This document shows positions 3,475-60,394 of a stretch of 64,000 nt of DNA, piece by piece (the stretch's first letter is position 1; every line of letters starts with the position of its first letter). The notes beneath the pieces are model-generated. The model was not told where the DNA came from, searched no databases, and saw only the letters and a program-made list of their open reading frames with translations. This stretch comes from Ignavibacteriaceae bacterium. GTDB lineage: Bacteria > Bacteroidota > Ignavibacteria > Ignavibacteriales > Ignavibacteriaceae. The stretch lies in assembly GCA_013360295.1 (NCBI GenBank), contig JABWCL010000011.1:62001-126000 (forward strand), read 5' to 3'. Both the position numbers and the translations under genes were made by a program.

Positions 3475-6400
3475 TCACGGCTTCTTTTTCCCCTTGGGCT
3501 TTGCTTTAACTGTCTTTACTGCTGATTTAGCAGATGATGTTTTTTTCACCGGAGATTTTACGGCTTTTTTGGTCGGCTTCTTTACCGCTTTTCCTTTAGC
3601 GGCAGTCTTCTTTTTGGGCGCGGCGGATTTTTTTACTGTTGTTCCCTTTTTCTTATCAGAAGAGGGCTTCACTTTCTTTTTACTGTCAGCAGTTTTAGCC
3701 TGACTTACCTTTTTCACTTTTTTTACGGGAGCGGCTTTTTTTGCCGGATTCTTCTTCACAATTGCTTTCGTTGTTTTCGCAACAACCTCTTCTTCAGCAG
3801 CCACAGGGATCTCTTCCTCCGGCTTTTCGACAGCCACTTCTGTAATGGGAGGAACCGGTACCGGAGTAAGCCTGGCAAGGATCTCATCATACTTAAATCC
3901 GGCTTCTTCCGCTGCTGTGGTTAAAGCTTCTATCTTATCTATCATTTTATTTAAATACAGGATGAATCTTCTTCCGGTGAAGACCTGCTGCTTTTCAATA
4001 TCCTCCGGATGCACGGGGGAATATTCGTCAATAAGCCTTTCAGCCTTCAGGATCAGCTCAAGAGTGAAATCCCAGTTGAGCAGTGTATTAAAGTTTTCCT
4101 TGCTGAAATAGGCGGTATCCTGATAAACATTATACCCGATAAAAGATTTAATTTCAGGATGCGAAAGCAGTTCGACCGCGCTGCTTTCCGCGGCAGGGAC
4201 ATCCTCAAAGATGCGCTGTTCGGACGCGAGAATCTTAAGCAGGTCAAACTCCTGCTTTACAAGCGGATAGTCATAATTCAGGCGGATAAGATTCTGCCAC
4301 AAAGGCTGGGCTAGGAGAAGGTTCTCGTATAATTGCGAAGCTTCCTTTCTGGATACAACTTTTTCAACGGAGAATAAAATCCTCTTCATCACAAAATAGA
4401 TCAGGATAAGGTCGCGATAGGCGTTCTGTTTCTGAGGATCATAAATGATCAGGAAGCCTTTTACGCGGATGTAGGTTTTGTTTTTCCGCTGTTCAGCCGT
4501 ACTTACCTGTTTATTCAGCAGTTTGAGCGTGGAGAGGTCTTTCTCTATCTCACCGATAATCACGGTTTCGCTGAGACGCATATCGTGCAGCGCTCCGAGC
4601 TCCGAAATTACAGCGGATAATTTTGTACGGATATAATCGCCGAAGCGGGCCGGACCCTGCCCTTCTTCCTTAAACCCGCAGTATCTCCCCAGTTCATCAA
4701 GCACTTCCGCTCCGAATAATCCGTTTACGGCTTCGTGAAGCGGCATTAACTGAAGTTCGCGCAGCGCGGCGGCAACGGAAGGAACGCCCTTTCCGCGCAG
4801 GTTATCGTGCAGAATTCTCAGATCGCCTGTTTTATCAGTCATCTCCTTAAACTCAGTAAAGACGTGGTACTGATAACCCTGTATATTGAAATACAATCCT
4901 TCAGCGGCGATATCTGCTCCGCTCCTGAGATACTCTAATCCGGTTTTTGAATCCCTGAATGCATAATAATATTCAAGCCCGCTTTTCATATTAAGCGCCG
5001 AGGCAAGCGTGTTCATCCGGAAGTCTTTGTCAGCCTCACCGGGACAGGTAGAAATTACTTTCCCGGTCGAAACGTGAATTGTACCCGGGGCAGCTTCATA
5101 CGAGTTGTTATAAACTACAAGCGCAAATTCTCCGCGCGCGTAGTTTGTGAACGCGAAAACATTGTGGTTAACTCTTCCGTCGTCTTCCACAAAATCGTAG
5201 AAATCAAAATGCTTCACTTCGCTGAAGAGATAACGCTTCCTGAAGATCGGGAAGATCTCCGCTTCGTGCCTCGCGATAAGGTAACCGTCCTCAAATTCAT
5301 TATAGTAAGCCTTGCTGTATTCCATACCGTATTTCTCGGTAAAGCCTTCTATCTGCCCGTGTGCAAGCATCGGCAGTCCGGGCAGGGTGGCGAGCATAAC
5401 GCAGACGCCAAAATATTTATCTCCCTTTCCGAACTGGTTTACGGCTGTTTCTTCATCGGGATTACTCATAAAATTCACATACCGTTTGAGAATTTCGGGA
5501 TTGAACTCGAGTGTATTGGTAATGAGTTCACGGAACTTCTGGTTTTCCTCCTTCATAAACATATGCATAAACGCGCTGTTATATACGCGGTGCATACCGA
5601 GTGTGCGGACGAAATATCCTTCCATCAGCCAGAACGCCTCAGCAAGAAGGAGCGTGTTCGGCATCTCCGCGTTCATACGGTCTACCACATCCCTCCAGAA
5701 TTCATTAGGCATAGCCGATTCAAACGCTTCCTGCGTTAACGCATAATCTGAACGGGACGGAATAGCGCCGCCAAGCCCGGGCTGAGGGAACCATAATCGC
5801 TGATAATGTTTCTTCGCGAGGGTCATAGCCGCATCAAAACGTATGATCGGAGTTTTCGCCGCTACGTGCTTAATCGCGCTTATGAGGTATTCCCTTACTT
5901 CTTCTTTCAGAAGGTTCAGCTGCGCGGTATCGTTCCAGGGCATATTGGTGCCGTCGTTACCGTGGTAGATATACCTTACTCGCCCGCTGCCGTTCTCAAT
6001 CAGCTGGAAGACAACCGCCGCGTCTTTCCTTGTGTAATATTTATCCTCAATCCTTATCTGAACAGCGGGACTGTCGGAAAGGTCGGGGCCTGTAAATGAA
6101 TACGACGGATATGGCGGCTGCTCGGTTTGTATGTAAAAATCAGGATGTTCGAGCACCCAGCGCGAAAAGATACCGGTATGATTCGGGACCATATCGCTCG
6201 AAAGCCTTATCCCCCTGATAGCGCACCTGTATTTAAGATTCAGGAATGCAGGCTCGCCGCCGAGCTTGTGAGCAATGTCATAATCATATAAAGAATATGC
6301 TGAAGATTCGGCTTCGGGATTTCCGCAAAACTGTTTGATCTTCTTTGATGCGGCGCTTCGCTCCCATAACCCGATCAGCCAAAGCGCATTGATATTCCTT

Positions 6401-7491
6401 TTTACCAGCAGGTCAAGCTCTTCATCAGGTATTTGTTCAAGGGTATATATATCGCGCTGATATTTTTTGCTCAACTGGTTCATCCATACATAGGCGTTTT
6501 TCGCGAGCATCACCACGTTTGGCATCCAGTCGATATCCTCGGTAAACTGCTCCGCTTCAAAGAAATATGACATGCTTACTTCATCAATGCTCACCGGCCT
6601 CTTCCCGGCAAGTATTTGTCTGCGTATCTCTTCTATCTCTTCTTTGGTAAGCAAAGGCTGGTATGAAGGAACAGGTGGAGTGCCGAAAGTGCCGTGTGTG
6701 CCGAATATCTTAGAGTCTTCAAAGATAAGGTCTTTCCCTTTGATCAGCCTCGCGAGAAACTTTTCGTCCAGCAGTTTGCCCCATTTTTCAATTATATATT
6801 CAAGCTGAGCGTTTGGATCATCGGGATTTGCCAGTATAGGTTTACGCAGCGCCTCGATAAGAGAGAGGTTTTCAAGGCTGAGCGGTTTTTCTTTAAGGAA
6901 AAACTCTTCCGCCCCCTTAATGAATTCAGTATAGGGAGCTTCCTCTTTTAATTTCGTGTTGTCAAAAAATTCAGCGAGCTTTTTAATGGACGGATTAATG
7001 TTCTCCAGATCAAGCAGTATCATCTCCTCAAACAATATTTCGAGGTTCTCTTTTTCCCCGGTCTTCCCCTGGAGGTAATCTGTCGCAGTTACTTCCCCTT
7101 TATATACCGGCAGCGGCGGGAACTGTTCCGTAAATTTCAGAAAAACCTTTTCCGCGCCTTCCTTCCCCAGGAGGCTGTACAGAGTATCAACGCCTCTCTT
7201 CAGCACGCCCGGATTTTCCTCTTCATCGTATTTCCTGATCACAAAGTGGAATATCTCGTGCAGAAGCCCGGCCGCGTTTATTAGTCCGGGAGTGATCAGG
7301 TTTTCAGTGTCATTAGCCGCCTCGCGGACTTTATTCACAGTATCGGCAACCTTACGCGCGAGTGGTGAATTAGCAATGATCAGCCGCCCGGTAATGGAGT
7401 AAAGCTCCTCATCAATGAGGTATTTATCCCTCGCCTCAGTATTTACGTGAAGGTAATAAGTGACTAAATTATTCGTCTGCATTTTTATCAT
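3475..7491 (-). CDS. Large GH13 alpha-amylase-family protein with histone-H1-like basic tail
   Basis: 1338 residues, no signal peptide, so probably cytoplasmic. The first ~330 residues are helical and unrecognised. The GH13 core lies at about 340-800: region with DMVPNHTG near residue 434, the nucleophile Asp in IRFDAAM near 552, and the acid/base Glu in LLLAEAFW near 615. About 800-1190 is again unassigned and helical. The last ~120 residues (encoded near 3480-3840) are a Lys/Ala/Pro-rich low-complexity tail (AAPKKKTAAKGKAVKKP) like histone H1 or Hc1-type nucleoid proteins. GH13 enzymes act on alpha-glucans; the tail could bind nucleic acid, acidic polymer or simply solubilise. A second in-frame Met lies three codons inside (MQTNN). 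Confidence 0.82.
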   Translation of the reverse strand: MIKMQTNNLVTYYLHVNTEARDKYLIDEELYSITGRLIIANSPLARKVADTVNKVREAANDTENLITPGLINAAGLLHEIFHFVIRKYDEEENPGVLKRGVDTLYSLLGKEGAEKVFLKFTEQFPPLPVYKGEVTATDYLQGKTGEKENLEILFEEMILLDLENINPSIKKLAEFFDNTKLKEEAPYTEFIKGAEEFFLKEKPLSLENLSLIEALRKPILANPDDPNAQLEYIIEKWGKLLDEKFLARLIKGKDLIFEDSKIFGTHGTFGTPPVPSYQPLLTKEEIEEIRRQILAGKRPVSIDEVSMSYFFEAEQFTEDIDWMPNVVMLAKNAYVWMNQLSKKYQRDIYTLEQIPDEELDLLVKRNINALWLIGLWERSAASKKIKQFCGNPEAESSAYSLYDYDIAHKLGGEPAFLNLKYRCAIRGIRLSSDMVPNHTGIFSRWVLEHPDFYIQTEQPPYPSYSFTGPDLSDSPAVQIRIEDKYYTRKDAAVVFQLIENGSGRVRYIYHGNDGTNMPWNDTAQLNLLKEEVREYLISAIKHVAAKTPIIRFDAAMTLAKKHYQRLWFPQPGLGGAIPSRSDYALTQEAFESAMPNEFWRDVVDRMNAEMPNTLLLAEAFWLMEGYFVRTLGMHRVYNSAFMHMFMKEENQKFRELITNTLEFNPEILKRYVNFMSNPDEETAVNQFGKGDKYFGVCVMLATLPGLPMLAHGQIEGFTEKYGMEYSKAYYNEFEDGYLIARHEAEIFPIFRKRYLFSEVKHFDFYDFVEDDGRVNHNVFAFTNYARGEFALVVYNNSYEAAPGTIHVSTGKVISTCPGEADKDFRMNTLASALNMKSGLEYYYAFRDSKTGLEYLRSGADIAAEGLYFNIQGYQYHVFTEFKEMTDKTGDLRILHDNLRGKGVPSVAAALRELQLMPLHEAVNGLFGAEVLDELGRYCGFKEEGQGPARFGDYIRTKLSAVISELGALHDMRLSETVIIGEIEKDLSTLKLLNKQVSTAEQRKNKTYIRVKGFLIIYDPQKQNAYRDLILIYFVMKRILFSVEKVVSRKEASQLYENLLLAQPLWQNLIRLNYDYPLVKQEFDLLKILASEQRIFEDVPAAESSAVELLSHPEIKSFIGYNVYQDTAYFSKENFNTLLNWDFTLELILKAERLIDEYSPVHPEDIEKQQVFTGRRFILYLNKMIDKIEALTTAAEEAGFKYDEILARLTPVPVPPITEVAVEKPEEEIPVAAEEEVVAKTTKAIVKKNPAKKAAPVKKVKKVSQAKTADSKKKVKPSSDKKKGTTVKKSAAPKKKTAAKGKAVKKPTKKAVKSPVKKTSSAKSAVKTVKAKPKGKKKP

Positions 7492-51977: not shown

Positions 51978-52823
51978 TTACAAATATTTCTCATACCACC
52001 CCCTCCTCACCTCATCAACCTGCCTTCTTGACTGGCGCAGATAGTGATCGGATTCTTCAAATATATGCAGAGCATACGTAACGCCTCTTTCACCAAAGCG
52101 CCGTGCCATTTCAATGCTATGCTCCGGTAAAATAATATCATCAGAGGCGCCGTGGACAAGCAGGTATTTCACATCGCGGGGCAGTTCTTCAAAACGGTAC
52201 TGCGCCGAGCGCGTGCGCATAACTTCTTCTATATCTCTCCCCGGCATTTTATGATTGTAATACTCAATGATATCCGGTTTGGTCTTAATATAAGCCCACG
52301 GATCCGATATTCCTCCGACCAGCACCGCGCATTTTATTCCCGGCACATTCATAAGCGTAAGGTACGTCATCATTCCCCCGCGGCTCCACCCTTCCATTCC
52401 CCATCTTGAAGTATCCGCAAAAGGAAATTCCTCCGCGAGCATCATCAGGTTAGTGATGTCATTCAGATCGCCGCCGCCGAACTGGTCTTCCCCTTCTCCT
52501 CTGACGCTCCCGCGGTACATCGAAGCAAAAACCGCATATCCCCACGACGCAATCAGCCCGAATATCCCGCGTGCCGTAAATGAGTCTATCACCCCCTTAT
52601 TCTTCATCCCGCCGCGGTTCCACATTACGCACGGGAGTTTCTCATCCTTCTTAATAAATTTAGGATAAGCGAGGTAGCCCTTGACGCGGTAGCCGTCCGA
52701 AAGATAAACAATCCTTTCGGTCATCGTATTCCTAAGCACCTCTTCACTCCATCCGCTGATCAGCATCTTCTCAAAGTGTGGAGAGAGGTGAATTTCCTCG
52801 CGTTCAATAATTTCGGGTATCAT
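51978..52823 (-). CDS. Prolyl-oligopeptidase-like alpha/beta hydrolase
   Basis: 281 residues without a signal peptide. The S9-type hydrolase core has VMWNRGGMKNKG (oxyanion side), VFASMYRGSVRGEGEDQFGG, the nucleophile Ser in GMEGWSRGGMM (about 148), the Asp in LVHGASDDIILP (about 225) and His in FEESDHYL. The triad is complete. The usual propeller of prolyl oligopeptidase is missing, so it is a stand-alone acyl-peptide or dipeptidyl hydrolase-like enzyme. Substrate unknown. It transcribes away from the accessory island. Confidence 0.87.
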   Translation of the reverse strand: MIPEIIEREEIHLSPHFEKMLISGWSEEVLRNTMTERIVYLSDGYRVKGYLAYPKFIKKDEKLPCVMWNRGGMKNKGVIDSFTARGIFGLIASWGYAVFASMYRGSVRGEGEDQFGGGDLNDITNLMMLAEEFPFADTSRWGMEGWSRGGMMTYLTLMNVPGIKCAVLVGGISDPWAYIKTKPDIIEYYNHKMPGRDIEEVMRTRSAQYRFEELPRDVKYLLVHGASDDIILPEHSIEMARRFGERGVTYALHIFEESDHYLRQSRRQVDEVRRGWYEKYL

Positions 52824-52997: not shown

Positions 52998-53084
52998 TTG
53001 AAGCTTATCGTAGGTTCTGTAAACACCGCGCCTGACGGATGGAATTTCGTATCAACGCTGGATCAGGCAAAGCAGATCTGTTAA
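52998..53084 (+). pseudogene. Frameshifted beginning of the cREC gene (first domain)
   Basis: From TTG 52998 this frame gives KLIVGSVNTAPDGWNFVSTL and DQAKQIC, then TAA (53082-53084). It lines up with the second cREC domain's WVYLDDLRTPPRGWVLTETP and continues in the -1 frame as ETIDELHIEDVIGDDPEGGL. So the first cREC domain appears split by a frameshift at about 53070-53082. If translated from ATG 53039 only, the first strand of that domain would be missing or out of frame. Confidence 0.6.
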
Positions 53085-53656
53085 ACGAAACAATAGATGA
53101 ACTGCATATAGAAGATGTTATTGGAGATGATCCGGAAGGCGGATTACGCCTGATTGCCTGGATAAAAGATCAGATCAAATCCAACGGTTATACTCCCCCA
53201 TTAAAGATCACACCACGATCAGAAGATAATGACAGATTAATTATTATGCGTGAAAAGACAGATCATATTCATCACCTCGTAAATAATCGTACTCTCCTTT
53301 CTTCAGAAGAACCCCTTTGGGTTTATCTCGATGATTTAAGAACTCCCCCCAGAGGGTGGGTACTCACAGAAACACCCGAAGAAACAATCGAATTATTGAA
53401 AACTGGCAGAGTCGAAAAACTCTCGCTGGATAATGATCTCGGTTTGGGACATGATGAACGTGGTAGAGAAAGAGATGGTTATAGCGTACTTAGGTGGCTT
53501 GAAGAAGAGGTGGAATTTTCAGGATTTATTTCACCTAATGTGATAACGGTACATTCAGGCAATCCCGTAGCGAGAAATAGGATGCAAACTGTAATTAATC
53601 GATTAGAAAAATCAAAAAAAAATGACTATGAAGCTCCAATATATTACCGACATTAA
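53039..53656 (+). CDS. cREC (cyclic-phosphate processing receiver-like) domain protein, probably tandem
   Basis: 205 residues in the intact frame. The C-terminal half (about 85-195) is a cREC domain: WVYLDDLRTPP (acidic pair), GWVLTETPEETIELLKTG, KLSLDNDLGLG, DGYSVLRWLEEE and NVITVHSGNPVARNRM, with all conserved acidic and His positions. The N-terminal half (about 20-75: IDELHIEDVIGDDPEGG, RLIAWIKDQI, ITPRSEDNDRLIIM) looks like a degenerate second cREC whose start lies upstream in another frame. cREC domains have been proposed from comparative genomics to process cyclic or other nucleotide phosphates in immunity systems. Opens the island; overlaps the next gene by 35 bases. Confidence 0.75.
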   Translation: MEFRINAGSGKADLLNETIDELHIEDVIGDDPEGGLRLIAWIKDQIKSNGYTPPLKITPRSEDNDRLIIMREKTDHIHHLVNNRTLLSSEEPLWVYLDDLRTPPRGWVLTETPEETIELLKTGRVEKLSLDNDLGLGHDERGRERDGYSVLRWLEEEVEFSGFISPNVITVHSGNPVARNRMQTVINRLEKSKKNDYEAPIYYRH

Positions 53657-54203
53657 GTGCGATGCAAATATTTTTCCATATGACCAGGATGCTATAAATC
53701 GCTTACAAAAGATTTATCGAACCGCACGCAAAGGGAACTTAAAAGAGGACAAGCTGACAAATCTAAAAGATTATTTGGCTAACATCCATAAGGAGCCCAG
53801 GTCGATTCCTTCTAATATCGAAGCATTCGATTCTTTTGCAAAAGAGATAATTAAAGAGATAGCCATAAGAATTAACGGTACGAGGAAGCTTAAATTTGGC
53901 ATCGCTCAAAAAATTTTTAATTTATTTATGAAAGATTTATGGGCATGGGACAAATTGAAGCCAGAACAGGAAAGCGTGCTTCATTGGCCTATTGATAAAG
54001 GTGTTTTAGATATGGTAAGAAAACCTGCTTGGAAAGCCTGGACGAAAGTAGTTACAACCGAAAATAATCTCAATGAAACATTTAACGAATATTTGCACAT
54101 TCAGAATATTCTTAGATCACAGCTCCTCAAATTCCCCCAATTTCATACAGCTATTGAAATGGAACAATATTTGTGGCATAAATTTGAATTAATTAATCAA
54201 TAA
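53622..54203 (+). CDS. Unknown helical protein, second gene of the island
   Basis: 193 residues (Met1 or Met3, MKLQYITDIKCDANIFP). Mostly helical by composition, with KFGIAQKIFNLFMKDLWAWD and HWPIDKGVLDMVRKPAWKAW as conspicuous Trp-rich stretches near the middle and SQLLKFPQFHTAIEMEQYLW near the end. No signal peptide, membrane segment or known motif. AT-richer than housekeeping genes. It overlaps the cREC gene by 35 bases, so the two are translationally coupled, and the next gene starts ten bases after it. Confidence 0.65.
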   Translation: MTMKLQYITDIKCDANIFPYDQDAINRLQKIYRTARKGNLKEDKLTNLKDYLANIHKEPRSIPSNIEAFDSFAKEIIKEIAIRINGTRKLKFGIAQKIFNLFMKDLWAWDKLKPEQESVLHWPIDKGVLDMVRKPAWKAWTKVVTTENNLNETFNEYLHIQNILRSQLLKFPQFHTAIEMEQYLWHKFELINQ

Positions 54204-54213
54204 AGGTCAGAAT

Positions 54214-54792
54214 ATGGGACAGACAACCCGAGATAACACAAAACACATTTTTCGCTCCTTGCTAGCTTTAGGAGTTATAGAGTTAGGCGCTAATCCTATA
54301 AAAAGAAGCGATTTGATAATTTCGCTAAACAATCAAAATATTAGATCTCATAGCCAAGCCAAAAGATTATTGGAATTAACTAAAAATTGGCTTACAGATG
54401 ACGATGCCAAATTCTACTCCGAAGATAATGGTGGTGATGAAAAGTCTATGTTCGTAGATTTTCAAAATCTCCCTACAGATATATATTTGGATTTTATAGA
54501 TACTCTGTTGAGTTTGTACAAAATAGGTGAAAGAAGGATTGATGACTCTATTTTAGAAATTTATAATAAGAGAGGAATAAAACCACTAAGTCTTATAACA
54601 CAAGTAATACTTGCAATAGAAGATGGGCAAGCCATTCATCTTCTTTTGGAAGATAGAAATCGCATGTTTATTGCGCCGAGCGCTCTAAAAAGGGAGGATA
54701 ATGTTTGGTTGGTTGTGGGTGTGCGAGTTGGAGATCCTTCAACGCTGAAGACAACCATCCCATTACATCAAATCAACGACATCGAGTTTTAG
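54214..54792 (+). CDS. Putative WYL-like protein with N-terminal helical domain
   Basis: 192 residues, preceded by AAAGG. About 1-120 is helical (RDNTKHIFRSLLALGVIELG, SLNNQNIRSHSQAKRLLELT). The last ~60 residues look like a small WYL-type sensor barrel: IEDGQAIHLLLEDRNRMFIA, PSALKREDNVWLVVGVRVG and PLHQINDIEF follow the pattern of WYL domains (P..L...+.WyvvG, then ..ipL.+I..I). WYL proteins often regulate immunity operons by sensing nucleotide ligands. The WYL call is from pattern only and needs a profile check. Confidence 0.5.
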   Translation: MGQTTRDNTKHIFRSLLALGVIELGANPIKRSDLIISLNNQNIRSHSQAKRLLELTKNWLTDDDAKFYSEDNGGDEKSMFVDFQNLPTDIYLDFIDTLLSLYKIGERRIDDSILEIYNKRGIKPLSLITQVILAIEDGQAIHLLLEDRNRMFIAPSALKREDNVWLVVGVRVGDPSTLKTTIPLHQINDIEF

Positions 54793-54835
54793 ATACTCTT
54801 GTGTTAGCCAAAAAATTTCATCGATAATTAACTTT

Positions 54836-54863
54836 CCATCCGTAAACAACATAAATCGGATGG
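54836..54863 (+). promoter_or_regulatory. Hairpin at the AAA+ gene start
   Basis: CCATCCG (54836-54842) pairs perfectly with CGGATGG (54857-54863); the ATG of the AAA+ gene begins three bases later. The ribosome-binding area is inside or next to the stem, so this could control translation or mark an operator/terminator boundary between the two halves of the island. Confidence 0.5.
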
Positions 54864-54866
54864 AAT

Positions 54867-56141
54867 ATGAACTTACTCGAACTCAACAAAAGCCCGAAAG
54901 TCAGAATCCCGAACCCGGTTCATCATACCGATGACCTCCGGAGCGAGATTAATACGTTCATTAAGAATTACCTCTTCAATTTGTACCACGGCAGGTTTTC
55001 ACACCCGGAAATCGTGGTCACGAAAATGATGGGGTGCATCAATTATTTTCACCCGCTGCTGAAACCCCCGTATGTTTTTTATAACGACAGTACAAAAATA
55101 CTGAGATTTGACGACTTATTGCTTTTCACCTCGGTTGACTATCATGGCGAAAGCTATGAGATCGTTTTCAAGACTGTCTTTATAGAAAATCCGCGGATCG
55201 CTAGGGTAACTGAAAAGAATCAGATATTCATTACCGGATTCACGGACGGCGCGCTATACCCCGAGGAACTGCTTACTGCTCTTAAAACCGGGGCGGTAAA
55301 AACGTCCAATATCAGGAATAAGATCTTAAGCTTAGATCCGCTCAAGAATAATGAAATTGACCTTCTTACAAAGTTGGAGGTTGTAGATGTGTCGCCGGTC
55401 AGTCTCTCCGATATCTTTCTTCCGGAGAATAAGGTCCGGGAATTCAGACGCTTTATTTACGAGATAATGAATTTCGAAGCCGGCAGCTCGCATCCGTGTC
55501 CGCGGTTCCTGCTCGCCGGCACGCCGGGGACGGGAAAGACGCAGATCATAAACGCGATACTGAATGAAACTAAGGGTAAAATAACGGCTTTTCTTTGCAG
55601 CGGCAACAATATCCAGCTCGATAAAATATTCGAGTTCTGTGAACAGATGGAGCCAACGCTGCTTATAATTGACGATCTCGATCAGGTTGTGGGAGACCGG
55701 CAGGGATACAACTCGGCGGTTTCTCTAAGGACTTTTCTGAATCTTATGGACGGAATGCTGACTAAGAAAAACAGCATCTTCATACTCGCGACCACGAACG
55801 TAAAAGGACACATAGACGCCGCGGCTTCCCGCCCGGGCAGGTGGAGTATGGTTTTGGACATAGACGAGATCACAAGCGATAATTACCTCCGGCTTGTCCG
55901 TCGCGAAACAGAAGACAATGAAATCATAGGGTGCTTTAACGAGAAGATATTAGACGAACTTAAATCGAAAAAAGTTACCGGAGCGCTTATCGTAAGCCTC
56001 ATAGATAATCTTACGTCTCTTAAAAAAATGAAGGGGGAGATAACAGGAACAGACTTCCGCGGATACTTTGACCTGATATATAACGGTTTTTATAAGTCCA
56101 ATTCGGAGTCAAAAATAAGCGAGGTGGGATTTGGAAACTAA
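54867..56141 (+). CDS. AAA+ ATPase with unique N-terminal domain
   Basis: 424 residues. An uncharacterised N-terminal region (about 1-165; VVTKMMGCINYFHPLLKPPY) precedes an AAA+ domain (about 180-410) of the classic unfoldase type: Walker A LAGTPGTGKTQ, Walker B LLIIDDLDQV, sensor 1 FILATTNV and the second-region Arg in DAAASRPGRWSM. Hexameric unfolding or remodelling is inferred. The N-terminal part may be the substrate adaptor. It is followed by an overlapping peptidase gene and lies in the middle of the island. Confidence 0.85.
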   Translation: MNLLELNKSPKVRIPNPVHHTDDLRSEINTFIKNYLFNLYHGRFSHPEIVVTKMMGCINYFHPLLKPPYVFYNDSTKILRFDDLLLFTSVDYHGESYEIVFKTVFIENPRIARVTEKNQIFITGFTDGALYPEELLTALKTGAVKTSNIRNKILSLDPLKNNEIDLLTKLEVVDVSPVSLSDIFLPENKVREFRRFIYEIMNFEAGSSHPCPRFLLAGTPGTGKTQIINAILNETKGKITAFLCSGNNIQLDKIFEFCEQMEPTLLIIDDLDQVVGDRQGYNSAVSLRTFLNLMDGMLTKKNSIFILATTNVKGHIDAAASRPGRWSMVLDIDEITSDNYLRLVRRETEDNEIIGCFNEKILDELKSKKVTGALIVSLIDNLTSLKKMKGEITGTDFRGYFDLIYNGFYKSNSESKISEVGFGN

Positions 56142-56952
56142 GCGAATATCAGATTATGTGATCCGAAAACTGAAAGAATACGCCGCGATCCCCTCATTGA
56201 CTCATCACGAAGATGAATTTTTGAATTATCTGATCGCTGATTTCGGAACGCCGCAGGGGATGGAGTGGATAAAAGTTAAAATTGAAGGGAAACAACAGGC
56301 GCAATTTCTTCACAATGTTGGCGATGATAGCGGGTTGGTATTCACTGTGCATACAGACCGTGTGCCGGATGCGGACGGGAATCCGTTTCAGAATATTATC
56401 GCAGAGTGTAAAGACGACGGATCAATAACCGGACAGCTTGACGATTTAATAGCCATCGCGATTCTCAGACATGTGATTGAATCCGGAATTAAAGTGAATA
56501 TACTGTTCACAACGCAGGAAGAAATCTGTAACAGTTACGTTCAGGTTGCCGCTGTTGCGGATAATTTCGGACTTATGCCTGTCAGCATTGACATTGATCC
56601 CGTGCGGATCTTTGATGAAAGTAAGGACAGAGCTATAACCATAAGGGAAAAGAGTTTCAGTTATTTATATGAACCTGAAACGGTGAGGATGCTTCAGGAA
56701 GTTGCTGTAAGAAACAATATTCCTTTTGAAACAGATTATGGGTACGTATGTGACGAAATACTTTATCTGATAAGAGCCGAACAGGGTACGGGGTGTCATC
56801 TTGGACTTCCATTGATGAACTATCACACTAACCGCGAAAAAGTAAAGGCCGCGGCAGTATTAAACATGATTGATCTTATATCCGCGGTATCTCGGGCGGA
56901 TGAGTTTAAGCGCTTGAATTACAACACCATTAGTGAAACATTAACCAATTAA
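56131..56952 (+). CDS. MH-clan (M20/M42-like) metallopeptidase
   Basis: 273 residues. Start is TTG, overlapping the AAA+ gene by 11 bases, with GAGGTGGG four bases before. The dinuclear zinc ligands are seen in FTVHTDRVPDADGNPF, GQLDDLIAIAIL, LFTTQEEICN, SIDIDP and LPLMNYHTNREKV, in the order used by M20/M28/M42 aminopeptidases. It is shorter than M20 carboxypeptidases because no lid/dimer insertion is visible. Probably trims small peptides in the cytoplasm; exact family needs a profile search. Confidence 0.8.
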   Translation: METKRISDYVIRKLKEYAAIPSLTHHEDEFLNYLIADFGTPQGMEWIKVKIEGKQQAQFLHNVGDDSGLVFTVHTDRVPDADGNPFQNIIAECKDDGSITGQLDDLIAIAILRHVIESGIKVNILFTTQEEICNSYVQVAAVADNFGLMPVSIDIDPVRIFDESKDRAITIREKSFSYLYEPETVRMLQEVAVRNNIPFETDYGYVCDEILYLIRAEQGTGCHLGLPLMNYHTNREKVKAAAVLNMIDLISAVSRADEFKRLNYNTISETLTN

Positions 56953-56968
56953 TCAAAAGGAATCTGAT

Positions 56969-57136
56969 ATGAACTATTACGATAACGATTATGAGAATAA
57001 GATTTTCGAACTCGAGTCGCAAATACAGGATTTGCAGAATAAACAGCGTATCAGCGAACAGAAATCAGCATCGCGCCGCAGAGGTTTCTGGTGGTTTATT
57101 TTAGTTTTACTCACGCTTGATTTTAACAATTATTAG
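56969..57136 (+). CDS. 55-residue coiled-coil plus membrane-tail protein
   Basis: Begins MNYYDNDYENKIFELESQIQ, a heptad-like acidic segment with a coiled coil to about residue 32. Then a basic patch (SASRRRG) and a hydrophobic tail, FWWFILVLLTL, consistent with a C-terminal membrane anchor with the N-terminus in the cytoplasm. AAAAGG is a good RBS eight bases before ATG. It fits exactly between the peptidase genes (16 and 13 bases) so is likely a real small protein of the system. Confidence 0.7.
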   Translation: MNYYDNDYENKIFELESQIQDLQNKQRISEQKSASRRRGFWWFILVLLTLDFNNY

Positions 57137-57149
57137 GAAGAAGCAGAAA

Positions 57150-57950
57150 ATGGAAAACATTAAAACACCGGGTGTCGGAGTAACCTGCATCTGCAATACC
57201 GGATCACCTATAAGGCACTTATTGGACGTCGTGATATGTCCGCAATGTAACAGAGAATTGCGCTTATCCGAAGAGACCAGAAAAAACTTGTGGATTAAAT
57301 ATCTGAGAAGAAACGGTCCCAGAAAGCCTATGGATATTCCTTTAGTGCAAAAAAGCGGCGAAGGCGACAAGGATGCTTGCCAGGCTGTTGTTGCATATAT
57401 GGCGCTGAAATATTACGGCATCAACGCATCAAAGGAGGAGTTCTTTGCAAGATGCGAAACAGCGGGGAAAGGAAATCACGCGCTTTCCTGGGGCGTGCTT
57501 AAAGGGGCTGCAAGTTACGGATTGTACGCCTGGCTGATCTCCGGCCATCCTTATGAACTCATCGGTTACGGAGACGTAATGGAGAAGGAAGGCTTAACGG
57601 AAGACGCGGCGAGAGAAAAAGTTAAAAGGCTCATTAAGGAATGCGAAGAAAATGAAAGAACTGAACTTTTTACAAACGTTGAAGAAAGGGTAATAATTTC
57701 AAAGTTCATTGACGCAAAAGCGGCTGTACTAATTCCTACCCTTGAATGGACAGAGAACGAAAACCATTCGGTTGTTGTAACTAATATCTGGGAGGGGTAT
57801 GTCTATTACAACGATCCAAACGACGAAAAGCAATGCAAAATGGATATGAATTATTTTTTCCGGCTTTGGCAAAACGAGAAAACGGACTATGATATTATAG
57901 TGATTTCAGATAAGAAAATTGATTTTGATGAAATAAATGAAAGAGAATAA
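57150..57950 (+). CDS. Zinc-ribbon plus C39-like cysteine peptidase
   Basis: 266 residues from ATG 57150 (AGGAAGAAG before it; an upstream Met would overlap the small gene). The N-terminus has a Cys4-type ribbon (CICN.. then CPQC, about residues 14-43). The rest is papain-fold like peptidase C39: the catalytic Cys in DIPLVQKSGEGDKDACQAVV (about 83), His in ENHSVVVTNIWEG (about 215) and an Asn/Asp in YYNDPND. A C39 domain without transporter suggests an intracellular or anchored protease. Substrate unknown, possibly the small tail-anchored partner or another island product. Confidence 0.75.
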   Translation: MENIKTPGVGVTCICNTGSPIRHLLDVVICPQCNRELRLSEETRKNLWIKYLRRNGPRKPMDIPLVQKSGEGDKDACQAVVAYMALKYYGINASKEEFFARCETAGKGNHALSWGVLKGAASYGLYAWLISGHPYELIGYGDVMEKEGLTEDAAREKVKRLIKECEENERTELFTNVEERVIISKFIDAKAAVLIPTLEWTENENHSVVVTNIWEGYVYYNDPNDEKQCKMDMNYFFRLWQNEKTDYDIIVISDKKIDFDEINERE

Positions 57951-57951
57951 A

Positions 57952-58569
57952 ATGAGAATAATGATGAATATGAGATTGTTTAATCAGTACAGAAGTGTGC
58001 TTGGCAGGAAGACCGCGGAGAAAATTGTATATCTTCATCAGGTTAACGAAATGCTGACCAGGCAGGTAAGGCCCGGCAGTGAGTGCGCCTGCAGTTTTGA
58101 ATCGTTTTTCAATAATGAAGAGGCTAACTACGAGCGCGGCGGTTTTGATGAATATCTTGCGTTGCTCTCTATGTCGGTCATGATAGATGAAACACTTTAC
58201 TATGTTCTCGTTGACAGGCGAAATAATCCGGAAAGCCTCGGTGAAGAAGCTGTTTATGAGGAATACAGAGAATACTTCAATTTCTTAAGGATATGGTACC
58301 ATTGCACCGCAAAGCATGTGTCCCCCGCATTTGTGTTGAAAAAGTTTCAGCATCCGGAGAATGAGGCGGAGATAACTGTTAGTAACAAAAAGATTCGACA
58401 GGCGAAGGAGATTCTTTGGGATTCCGGAGTGAAAATGTATCTTACAGAGAGAGGGAGAGAAGACATAGCGGAGCTTTGCGAAAAGGAATTCCTGAGAGAC
58501 CTTACGATCAGAGAGAGGTACACCGAAAAGGATGAAGCGCGTCTTAAACCAATCTTTGAGGCAGTATGA
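57952..58569 (+). CDS. Unknown protein, island gene
   Basis: 205 residues from ATG 57952, one base after the previous stop; a Met five codons earlier would overlap it. Helical in outlook with Tyr- and Glu-rich segments (FDEYLALLSMSVMIDETLYY, EEAVYEEYREYFNFLRIWY) and a Cys pair (SECACSF). The end is charged (RERYTEKDEARLKPIFEAV). No signal peptide, membrane helix or known catalytic motif. The next gene overlaps its stop by ATGA. Confidence 0.7.
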   Translation: MRIMMNMRLFNQYRSVLGRKTAEKIVYLHQVNEMLTRQVRPGSECACSFESFFNNEEANYERGGFDEYLALLSMSVMIDETLYYVLVDRRNNPESLGEEAVYEEYREYFNFLRIWYHCTAKHVSPAFVLKKFQHPENEAEITVSNKKIRQAKEILWDSGVKMYLTERGREDIAELCEKEFLRDLTIRERYTEKDEARLKPIFEAV

Positions 58570-59207
58570 AAGATCTGTTTGTTAAACTGATTGAACTTCG
58601 CACGCGTTTAATTACATACAGTAAACTGTCGGATTCCACCCGTGAACTCGGACTAAGCAGCAGTATAAGCAATTTTCTTGAAGACGTAAAAGAGAATTAT
58701 TCCGGCTTCGATATGGAGTCCGCCAATTACAATGCGGCGATAATCATTAACTGTGCAAAACCGCAGGAGTTGCGGGAAACCTTACTGGAATCATTTATTA
58801 ATTCTCTGAATAAAATAAATGAGGATGCATCAAAGGATTTCCTCCTCAGCTCTCTTAAGGATATGTTCATTCTGGAAAAGCTGTTCAGTATGCGATTGTT
58901 CGAACCGGAGTTCATAGATAATATCGAAAGATTATTGCAGCAATTCACCGAACTGAAATCTCAGATGCCGGAGAAGTACACGGTAATGCGCGAAGTTGTG
59001 ACCGAATTACATCAGGCGCTGAAAGCAAAGATTGATGAGATGGGGGTGACTGTGCGACAGATGGAGTTGGTTGGGAGAGAGATGTTAAATTGGGATTATT
59101 TGATAATCGATAATCGATTCCAATTTAATGATTCTGAATATAGAAGTGTTGTAGCATTGCATCAAGTTTTTATAGTGTTTTGTTCTATTAAGTACGCATT
59201 AAAATAA
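58566..59207 (+). CDS. Unknown all-helical protein, island gene
   Basis: 213 residues, translationally coupled to the previous gene. Nearly all helix: KDLFVKLIELRTRLITYSKL, LRETLLESFINSLNKI, KDMFILEKLFSMRLFEPEFI and EVVTELHQALKAKIDEMG, a pattern of amphipathic helices like a bundle or coiled scaffold. The 3' part after about residue 185 is AT-rich and less regular, possibly from local decay. No catalytic motif; a structural or inhibitor/adaptor role is possible. Confidence 0.68.
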   Translation: MKDLFVKLIELRTRLITYSKLSDSTRELGLSSSISNFLEDVKENYSGFDMESANYNAAIIINCAKPQELRETLLESFINSLNKINEDASKDFLLSSLKDMFILEKLFSMRLFEPEFIDNIERLLQQFTELKSQMPEKYTVMREVVTELHQALKAKIDEMGVTVRQMELVGREMLNWDYLIIDNRFQFNDSEYRSVVALHQVFIVFCSIKYALK

Positions 59208-59247
59208 ATAATATTTTAAAACAATAAATTATTCGAGGTGAATGATA

Positions 59248-59613
59248 ATGAAGAGCTGGAGTTCATGGATTTCTTTAACCGCAACGGGAATACGATCCAT
59301 CCCCATAAATATTGCTGGAGTTTATACTATAAGAGTCAGGGAGATTATCCCAAATTATGATAGCGATATCATTTATATGGGTAAATCAAAGGACATTAGT
59401 CGAAGATTAAAAGGCTTACTGGATGATTTAAACAATGATCGTGAAAAGTGGAAGGGACATTCGTCTAGTCAAAAAATCAAACTTTATAAAAAACACGGTT
59501 TAGAGTTTTCTTTTATTCAAGTATCAAAAAATTCTGATGGGGTGGAAAAGGCACTATTGCTTGCTTTCCATTGTTCAAATGGTCGCTTGCCACTATGTAA
59601 TAGGTCGTTTTAA
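59248..59613 (+). CDS. Small GIY-YIG-like protein
   Basis: 121 residues from ATG 59248, which has GAGGTG seven bases before; an ATG two codons earlier would be too close. It follows the GIY-YIG fold order: AGVYTIRVRE (GVY for GIY), DIIYMGKSKDISRRLKGL (YMG plus Arg), a helix with HSSSQKIKLYKKHG and VEKALLLAFHCSNGRLPLCN (Glu before Asn). The order of catalytic residues (Tyr, Arg, Glu, Asn) fits; nuclease activity is inferred. Last gene of the island, 40 bases after the helical protein and before the terminator. Confidence 0.65.
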   Translation: MKSWSSWISLTATGIRSIPINIAGVYTIRVREIIPNYDSDIIYMGKSKDISRRLKGLLDDLNNDREKWKGHSSSQKIKLYKKHGLEFSFIQVSKNSDGVEKALLLAFHCSNGRLPLCNRSF

Positions 59614-59717
59614 TTAATTGAATTAATAACGGAACTAAGAGGTAAGTAGGATTCTGGAACCGGTTTTTTCAATATAACCAGTCCAATCCTATAAATCCGC
59701 TTCCCAATTTCATAAAT

Positions 59718-59747
59718 CCGGACGGATAGAACCTCCGTCCGGTTTTT
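59718..59747 (+). terminator. Rho-independent terminator at the end of the island
   Basis: CCGGACGGA (59718-59726) pairs perfectly with TCCGTCCGG (59734-59742), loop TAGAACC, followed by TTTTT. It closes the forward operon and marks its right limit. Confidence 0.92.
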
Positions 59748-59839: not shown

Positions 59840-60394
59840 CTACAACTTCCGCAATATCCTGCTCCCGGTCTGTTCTTCAACAATGGCTCCGCAGGTTTTG
59901 CAGAAGAAAGTGCCTTTGATGTCCACTTCTTCTATCGCGGCGGAGGAGTGCATTACGCAATCCCAGTCGTGGCAGTGCTTCAGTCCGAAGTTGTGCCCGA
60001 GCTCGTGGAGGCTTTCTTTGATGAGGCGTATAAAGAGAAGTTCTTCGTTGGTGTTGCCGGAGTAAAATTCTTCGTGAAGGCGGCAAAGGGATACTATGGA
60101 ATGCTTTCCCCCCAGCTGCGCTTCACCGAATACAAAGGTGAAGACGGGTACATACAGGTCGTGCTCGATCAGCATCTGCACTTTACCTTCGATCGTGTCC
60201 GTGCGCTTAATCGCGTCGGCAATTATCTTTGTGGAGAAGTACTGTTTCCTTTCAACCGAGCGGTACTCTTCTATCGGGATATCGAGATCAACATAGTTTA
60301 CCTCCGCCCCGAGTATCCTTTCAAGCGAGAGGGAGAGGCGGTCGCTTAGTTTGCGGTCTTCAAATCCGAGAGGCGCTAAATGAAGCTTAAGCAT
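59840..60394 (-). CDS. amzA: Archaemetzincin-like zinc peptidase
   Basis: 184 residues with the complete archaemetzincin signature: zinc motif HELGHNFGLKHC (about 131-142), the downstream Met in DCVMHSS and the extra pair CKTC (about 165-168) that binds a second zinc. Archaemetzincins are small cytoplasmic or periplasmic proteases mostly known from archaea and some bacteria; there is no signal peptide here. The start ATG overlaps the stop of the regulator gene by one base (TGATG), so it belongs to the two-component operon. Confidence 0.93.
   Translation of the reverse strand: MLKLHLAPLGFEDRKLSDRLSLSLERILGAEVNYVDLDIPIEEYRSVERKQYFSTKIIADAIKRTDTIEGKVQMLIEHDLYVPVFTFVFGEAQLGGKHSIVSLCRLHEEFYSGNTNEELLFIRLIKESLHELGHNFGLKHCHDWDCVMHSSAAIEEVDIKGTFFCKTCGAIVEEQTGSRILRKL

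Follow-up and report, generated by a model that had tools for sequence, protein, structure and literature searches.

A ten-gene operon around an AAA ATPase

The DNA analysed here (the window, 64,000 nucleotides of contig JABWCL010000011.1 from an Ignavibacteriaceae bacterium) contains, at 52998-59613, ten open reading frames (ORFs) on the forward strand that lie around the gene of an AAA ATPase (Table 1). An earlier reading of the same letters (the original prediction) had described them as a candidate undescribed immunity or quality-control system combining a cREC domain, a WYL-like sensor, an AAA+ protein, two proteases and a GIY-YIG-like nuclease. All ten ORFs are present as claimed, and so are the S9-type hydrolase gene that diverges upstream (51978-52823, reverse strand) and the terminator downstream. 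The overlap sizes given for the genes are also correct: 35 bases between the cREC gene and the second gene, g2 (53622-53656), 11 between the AAA and M42-like genes (56131-56141) and 4 between the genes named H1 and H2 (58566-58569). The C39-like gene and H1 share a 14-base overlap, provided that H1 starts at 57937. G+C content is 0.34-0.46 across the operon and 0.41-0.50 in the flanks. A Pfam scan that took in nine operon proteins (the 55-amino-acid (aa) protein was left out) placed the cREC, AAA, M42 and C39_2 assignments above the curated cut-offs, in agreement with the original prediction; g2, the third gene product g3, H1 and H2 were left without any family above cut-off.

Table 1 Genes and sequence features of the operon, in window coordinates.
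Feature	Position	Strand	Evidence
cREC protein	52998..53656	+	PF20274 90.8 bits, cut-off 27, E 9e-26
g2, unknown protein	53622..54203	+	ORF
g3, short helix-turn-helix (HTH)–WYL-like protein, probable regulator	54214..54792	+	directly 5' of AAA; profile-profile match to WYL
Inverted repeat / hairpin	54834..54865	+	arms 54834-54842 and 54857-54865; 3' arm ends one base before AAA start codon
AAA ATPase, 424 aa	54867..56141	+	PF00004 65.7 bits, cut-off 21.2; Walker B 'DDLD', C-tail 'GFYK'
MH-clan (M42-like) aminopeptidase, 273 aa	56131..56952	+	PF05343 27.6 bits, cut-off 23.2
55-aa protein, short hydrophobic C-terminus	56969..57136	+	coiled-coil-like by eye; G017 homologue E 3e-7
C39-like cysteine peptidase, 266 aa	57150..57950	+	PF13529 29.5 bits (cut-off 24); PF03412 25 bits, also above cut-off
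H1	57937..58569	+	helical by model
H2, unknown protein	58566..59207	+	G017 copy at the equivalent position, 36% identity
GIY-YIG-like protein, possible nuclease effector	59242..59613	+	PF01541 20.8 bits, below cut-off 22.6
Intrinsic terminator	59718..59742	+	9-pair stem, T tail

Parts of the operon recur together in related genomes

We refer to the genome of the window as G000; G001 is of the same genus, G017 of the same family and G170 of another family. Of 391 genomes of the class, 2 contained a match to the M42-like query from the window, 2 one to C39, 3 one to the H1 profile and 20 one to the AAA N-domain. These sets are nested (H1 in G000, G017 and G382; C39 in G000 and G017; M42 in G000 and G382), and H1 occurs with M42, C39 or both wherever its profile was found. 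A 365-genome sample of the phylum gave H1 in 2 genomes, both already in the class set. In G001, a 3-kb contig carries cREC, a 270-aa ORF, g3 and AAA contiguously, at 77% identity for cREC, 64% for g3 and 70% for AAA. In G017, the 3' end of AAA, a short ORF, a small protein, C39 (60% identical), H1, H2 and a last ORF follow one another in the order of the window, without M42, whilst the 5' part of AAA lies on a separate contig with g3 (40% identical) directly before it. The G017 contig with C39 was the sole match when genome contigs were searched with this peptidase. Inverted repeats of 220 bases (93% identical) lie near both of its ends, and 20 to 26 bases of these repeats recur at the AAA break. 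Thus, an insertion sequence most likely splits AAA in G017. In G382, an M42-like peptidase (35% identical) is accompanied by two tandem H1 relatives (E 1e-8 and 7e-4; L011, 7367-9542), and no AAA N-domain was found in that genome; the locus, having no AAA of the operon's family, may represent a minimal version.

At E 0.01, the AAA N-domain profile matched 26 places in the 20 genomes, namely 3 close copies, 21 distant copies that were analysed and two weak ones that were left out (G126 and G311); the 24 close and distant copies make up the AAA family below. Against the AAA profile, each of the 21 distant copies has an E of 1e-44 or lower. WYL regulators above the Pfam cut-off lie no more than one gene from 9 of the 21. 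Neighbouring cREC genes were found at three (twice in G272, once in G170), neighbouring C39 genes at two (G170 and G226), and a weak H1-like ORF at one (G272 C112, ranked first of 311 unrelated ORFs with E 3.5e-4, the next at 0.0086). The fullest arrangement is that of G170, where C39, a probable MH-clan peptidase, AAA and cREC stand side by side, so that four parts of the operon are repeated in another family. The G170 peptidase scores below the M42 cut-off (18.4 bits vs 23.2) and comes sixth in the M42 profile scan (0.02), with the ligand positions kept. The identity of the G170 C39 protein, which the C39 profile scan placed at 0.003, beneath an unrelated ORF at 0.0012, was settled by a Pfam match above cut-off. 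The two G272 loci read g3-like–AAA–cREC and AAA–88aa–cREC–H1-like, and G226 has C39–AAA–WYL. Genes of PD-(D/E)XK, DnaQ-type, Z1 and HsdM proteins lie within ~3.5 kb of some AAA copies. In G170 (L060, 477-14142), a Z1-domain gene (PF10593, E 4e-52) and its neighbours lie between two copies of AAA, in a restriction-like neighbourhood.

The linkage of cREC to the AAA family was examined in seven genomes (G000, G001, G017, G170, G226, G272 and G382). All five cREC genes above cut-off, located in four of these genomes, adjoin a member of the AAA family, and a control set gave a cREC match in 0/14 genomes. The product of the chance locations, 4e-14, is not a fair p-value, as a cREC had already been observed in these four genomes when they were picked; for the same reason, the weight of the linkage lies in there being no other cREC gene above cut-off in those four genomes. 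Absences of cREC elsewhere are soft, since our own cREC profile missed the G170 copy that Pfam found. Because AAA is joined to cREC, to g3 or to both in G001, G017, G272 and G170, and all five cREC genes above cut-off adjoin AAA, we conclude that there is one modular system and not two. Co-occurrence in other genomes, on which the original prediction had staked itself, was thus found, with parts recurring in G001, G017, G170, G272, G226 and G382. Judged from these sequences, the operon is a recurring and modular set of parts with conserved active-site residues and a patchy distribution, of which one copy appears broken by an insertion sequence.

The AAA ATPase and its N-domain

The Walker B motif DD[LIV]D is present in 24/24 members of the AAA family alignment, and GFY near the C-terminus is kept in 19 of the 22 members with a complete tail. 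We modelled the N-domain from the 24 sequences (predicted local distance difference test (pLDDT) 88, predicted TM score (pTM) 0.78). A Foldseek search with the model returned Bcs1 at ranks 1, 2, 4, 6 and 13 (E 1.3e-3 to 6.2e-3, prob 0.91-0.99, TMq 0.28-0.32), without clear separation from other folds, PYL2-type receptors taking ranks 3, 5 and 7; by VIA, Bcs1 reached Z values up to 7.6 and an unrelated kinase domain 7.7. The sequence profile of the N-domain found no Bcs1 chain, and the alignment of the AAA family profiles with a phage protein annotated as BCS1 begins only at the linker that precedes the ATPase. The Bcs1 link therefore rests on structure and on Walker B, where an alignment places Asp at the catalytic position (DD[LIV]D in the operon family, E-D-I-D in Bcs1). 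Mitochondrial Bcs1 has an N-terminal membrane helix. No such helix was detected by hydropathy in the first 60 residues of any of the 24 members (highest 17-residue mean 1.22). The ATPase domain is nearer to CDC48/p97 by sequence and close to the PAN and CDC48 profiles, and the operon family further differs from Bcs1 in its linkage with peptidases and cREC. Given the CDC48/p97-like ATPase domain, the negative N-domain profile search and the lack of a membrane helix, "Bcs1-like" is used here for the resemblance of a modelled fold and not for membership of Bcs1.

The two peptidases and the 55-aa protein

The M42-like enzyme retains the metal-binding positions H74, D76, D104, E130, E131, D154 and H232, which are invariant in 3 sequences. 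In M42 aminopeptidases, a dimerisation domain builds the TET particles. The operon enzyme resembles these proteins in its M42 profile match and metal-ligand positions, yet has 29 residues between H74 and D104, which leaves no room for a domain of that size. We therefore rejected TET membership and consider a proteasome-like hollow chamber unlikely; activation through limited proteolysis is the better fit. The C39-like peptidase keeps its Cys and His positions and begins with a four-cysteine, zinc-ribbon-like segment (by eye) that is kept in G017. It was also considered as part of a bacteriocin C39 exporter and rejected, being a 266-aa protein with no fusion and with no transporter above cut-off among the operon proteins scanned. 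The 55-aa protein had been described as tail-anchored. It has no more than a short hydrophobic end, with a best 17-residue mean of 1.04 (1.71 in the G017 homologue), and the description is corrected accordingly.

g2, g3 and the hairpin before the AAA gene

The position of g2 is filled in G001 by an unrelated 270-aa ORF (hhalign E 0.14). This ORF (L025, 465-1277) contains a 'LASWGM' stretch that visual inspection also finds in a 229-aa ORF close to M42 in G382, and the same pair of ORFs gives a separate 36-column hhalign match at E 3.7e-4. g3 directly precedes AAA in the window, in G001 and in G017. Full-length profile-profile comparison of g3 with eight WYL neighbours gave E 3.7e-5, with five unrelated controls at 0.2-0.78, and the first matches of the g3 hidden Markov model beyond its own members are two WYL ORFs (1.2e-4 and 2.4e-4). 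This indicates a resemblance of g3 to a short HTH–WYL regulator. The WYL-like sensor of the original prediction thus stands as a profile-profile resemblance, with no PF13280 match. A 214-aa ORF in G382 is weak as a g3 homologue (hhalign E 0.094 to g3, 9.7e-4 to a 199-aa ORF in G272).

The predicted hairpin before the AAA gene was recovered with a z of -3.1, 3/300 shuffled sequences folding equally well. It recurs with differing letters in the two nearest homologues (G001, z -2.2, 7/300 shuffles; G017, z -5.5, 0/300), and in G017 it spans the AAA start instead of lying just before it. Among 19 distant AAA copies tested, a comparable hairpin was found at 3 (z -2.3 to -3.2), the other 16 having z -1.7 or weaker. 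The hairpin could serve as an operator, as a translation lock, or as both.

The cREC gene and its probable degenerate repeat

The cREC domain is well above its cut-off, and the start assigned to its ORF has to be revised. The TTG at 52998 lies in a different frame, which reaches a stop at 53082-53084; the conserved cREC ORF runs from 53039 to 53656 (205 aa), and its cREC domain occupies aa 95-187. Against the cREC profile, the frame that begins at the TTG covers positions 2-30 weakly (3.4 bits), and the next frame, that of the conserved ORF, covers positions 49-95 (9.2 bits) ahead of the intact domain; the N-terminal part of the repeat matches the cREC domain of the G001 copy by BLAST (E 1e-4). 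As weak colinear profile matches in two frames precede the intact domain, the gene probably contains, or once contained, an additional degenerate N-terminal cREC repeat with a frame change inside it. The G001 contig begins within the repeat. Two aspartate motifs, YLDD and LDxDLG, are kept in the window cREC when aligned with two G272 copies and the G001 copy. According to passages of PMC7824862 and PMC9503650, the proposed role of cREC is the resolution of 2'-3' cyclic ends or 1''-2'' cADPr (cyclic ADP-ribose); those of PMC9503650 term it experimentally uncharacterized and treat cREC, SLOG and Nudix as members of one ADP-ribose-processing network.

H1, H2 and the GIY-YIG-like protein

The H1 model is helical (pLDDT 73); a search with it gave no PDB match at E < 0.001, and the best VIA Z was 4.9. 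H1 of G017 weakly matches the PADLOC candidate family PDC-M08B (E 9e-4). For the last gene, the PF01541 match behind the predicted GIY-YIG-like nuclease stays below the cut-off. The last ORF of G017, in the same place, is not recognisably related (hhalign E 0.15); a GIY-YIG assignment for that ORF was a by-eye impression that was not confirmed.

Viral, phage and plasmid relatives

With the family alignment as query, viral contigs yielded at least 108 relatives. Of the 80 viral loci taken from these, two keep the AAA N-domain (E 1e-3). Both of these contigs carry NUDIX and YAcAr SLOG genes within ~2.2 kb upstream, all four above cut-off (L089, 4433-7942; L090, 3562-6826); L089 has a tandem duplication comprising a 79-aa ORF and part of the NUDIX gene. 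None of the 80 loci matched our own cREC, WYL, g3, C39, M42, H1 or H2 profiles, and single queries with AAA, M42, C39, H1 and g3 returned no relatives on viral contigs. The AAA of the window retrieved 134 plasmid records, the best 20 of which have alignments that start at residue 80 or later, and two Rhizobium neighbourhoods of such matches were unrelated to the operon. The G170 AAA retrieved 10 plasmid records through the ATPase part alone. A phage search with AAA gave 29 records, of which the best 20 were listed and one was looked at.

Neighbouring genes

An archaemetzincin-family metalloprotease gene (59840-60394, reverse strand; 148.9 bits vs a cut-off of 145) converges on the 3' end of the operon. 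Further away in the window, a 1338-aa ORF (3475-7491, reverse strand) is probably the Type IIG restriction-modification enzyme at the head of the PADLOC control scan (E 1.4e-243), a scan that did not name the matching member.

Comparison with known systems

The claim that the set corresponds to no named system held: PADLOC and NCBIfam give none, and the combination of parts was not found described among the papers that searches of the open-licence PMC literature listed, an earlier description elsewhere being possible. The nearest candidate by PADLOC is IetAS, in which the AAA ATPase IetA is paired with the subtilisin-like protease IetS. The operon shares with it an AAA ATPase next to a protease, and the operon AAA has IetA as its top PADLOC hit (E 6.9e-12). 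However, this match covers aa 160-383 only, the IetA equivalog NF042959 gives 39 bits vs a cut-off of 510, and the operon has cREC, g3, C39 and the MH-peptidase with no S8/subtilase match among the nine proteins scanned. The sub-cut-off IetA score and the missing subtilase rule out membership of IetAS. The NTP-dependent (nucleoside triphosphate-dependent) conflict systems of the MoxR-vWA ternary and peptidase-cascade types, as outlined in sections of PMC7159879, are similar in that a single operon encodes an AAA+ motor together with peptidases and an effector that can be exchanged. The operon differs from them in having no MoxR-vWA pair, trypsin or caspase above cut-off among the nine proteins, and the MoxR-vWA ternary assignment was rejected (bpMoxR 12.7 vs 27 bits, no vWA match). 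In the text of PMC7159879, 'C39' occurs 0 times and 'WYL' 1 time. With the cREC and ADP-ribose-network systems, the operon has in common the cREC domain and the link to a WYL-type regulator, and viral AAA copies lie near NUDIX and SLOG; the corresponding passages of PMC7824862 and PMC9503650 describe cREC alongside RNA ligases, sirtuins, Nudix and WYL, and no AAA with two peptidases. We place the operon with those that combine an NTPase with peptidases and an exchangeable effector; its list of parts is new.

Proposed mechanism and alternative explanations

Taken together, we interpret the ten genes as one accessory, modular operon whose centre is an AAA ring carrying a Bcs1-like N-domain; its likeliest role is that of a conflict (anti-phage) system signalled by a nucleotide. 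We hold this interpretation tentatively, with the case for it and the case against it close to balance. In its favour are the recurring sets of parts, the position of the five cREC genes next to AAA, the WYL regulators near 9 of the 21 distant copies, the two viral contigs with NUDIX and SLOG genes, the patchy distribution and the G+C range of the operon compared with its flanks. The regulation, the ligand, the order of events and the anti-phage role are inferred, as follows. The WYL-like g3 would keep expression of the operon low, and the hairpin would limit translation of AAA. Infection or RNA damage would raise the level of a nucleotide ligand of the cyclic-phosphate or ADP-ribose type, on which g3 would release and the AAA ring assemble. 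The ring may hold a target protein via its N-domain and either remodel it or deliver it to the two peptidases, MH-clan and C39. Retention of the complex at the membrane may fall to the 55-aa protein, H1 and H2 could be adaptors or substrates, and the terminal GIY-YIG-like protein would be an exchangeable nuclease effector. Finally, cREC would remove the ligand and reset the system. A more specific version, which we consider possible and rather doubtful, is an immune machine in which a soluble Bcs1-type AAA ring, freed when a cyclic-phosphate or ADP-ribose signal relieves the WYL-like repressor, drives the MH-clan exopeptidase and the zinc-ribbon papain-fold peptidase on a target and releases the nuclease, whilst cREC erases the signal; the related AAA that phages carry with NUDIX and SLOG would perhaps counter it.

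Several observations weigh against a nucleotide-signalled conflict system. The AAA gene has a G+C content of 0.45-0.46, the same as the flanks. g3 has no Pfam WYL match (PF13280), and a scan with the single g3 ORF placed two AAA ORFs (0.0016 and 0.0017) above the best WYL ORF (0.0021). Nine of the 21 distant AAA copies have no WYL, cREC, C39 or MH-peptidase neighbour, some of their contigs being short. The peptidases recur in few loci: the MH-peptidase adjoins AAA in two genomes only (G000 and, below the Pfam cut-off, G170), and C39 lies near AAA in four (G000, G017, G170 and G226). Ten weaker cREC matches below cut-off occur elsewhere in the seven genomes. With 112 neighbours of AAA as queries (four further ORFs, which contain unread letters, had been set aside), a PADLOC scan matched 237 families; with 53 control proteins it matched 129, and the separation is not clean; the best 25 families of each scan were listed, and among the matches listed WYL models hit 8 of the 112 neighbour proteins. 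Lastly, plasmids gave no M42 or C39 match and phages no M42 match.

The alternatives differ in which part they make central. If the AAA ring unfolded damaged proteins for degradation by the two peptidases, with cREC and g3 sensing general stress only, the operon would be a stress-induced protein quality-control system. In line with this, the AAA is accompanied by two peptidases whose active-site residues are conserved, and its ATPase domain is close to the PAN and CDC48 profiles. Core quality control is normally conserved, however, and the operon is rare and patchy in the class; moreover, g2 and the last gene are exchanged between genomes, AAA is most likely broken by an insertion sequence in G017, the last gene is nuclease-like, and WYL regulators and some restriction-type genes lie near distant copies. 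We consider this explanation unlikely. The proposed resolution of 2'-3' cyclic ends or 1''-2'' cADPr by cREC (in passages of PMC7824862 and PMC9503650), together with NUDIX and SLOG near the viral AAA copies, would agree with an RNA-damage or ADP-ribose response, whether for repair or for nucleotide signalling, that has cREC as its main enzyme and uses the peptidases only to mature or recycle its components. Among the nine operon proteins scanned, none matched an RNA ligase, a polynucleotide kinase or KptA, and RNA repair as described in those passages has no place for two peptidases, which makes this a distinctly weak candidate.

A C39 peptidase above the Pfam cut-off and a Bcs1-like N-domain model could also be read as peptide maturation and export, with C39 trimming a leader peptide, the task it has in bacteriocin ABC transporters, and with a Bcs1-like translocase formed by the AAA. 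This we judge improbable, with no ABC transporter above cut-off among the operon proteins scanned and no membrane helix predicted in the AAA N-termini. The original prediction had also raised two adjacent systems split at the hairpin, and the 74-base gap, the hairpin and the lower G+C of the first three genes would suit two unrelated neighbours divided there. The gene orders contradict the split (cREC–x–g3–AAA in G001, g3–AAA in G017, and AAA–cREC twice in G272 and in G170), and on this synteny two separate systems were ruled out, leaving the division with next to no credence. Overall, the original prediction is partly supported: it stands in its main parts, in the lack of a named match and in the co-occurrence, its choice between one system and two is decided for one, and immunity or quality control is a candidate role.

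Implications for cREC and Bcs1-like ATPases

Since 5/5 of the cREC genes above cut-off in the seven genomes adjoin the AAA family, the operon provides a defined setting for testing cREC. A soluble Bcs1-like AAA with two peptidases would couple motor and proteolysis in a new way, distinct from the proteasome, FtsH and Clp. It could also connect the BCS1-type ATPases of phages, which passages of PMC7824862 place in jumbo phages, with immunity.

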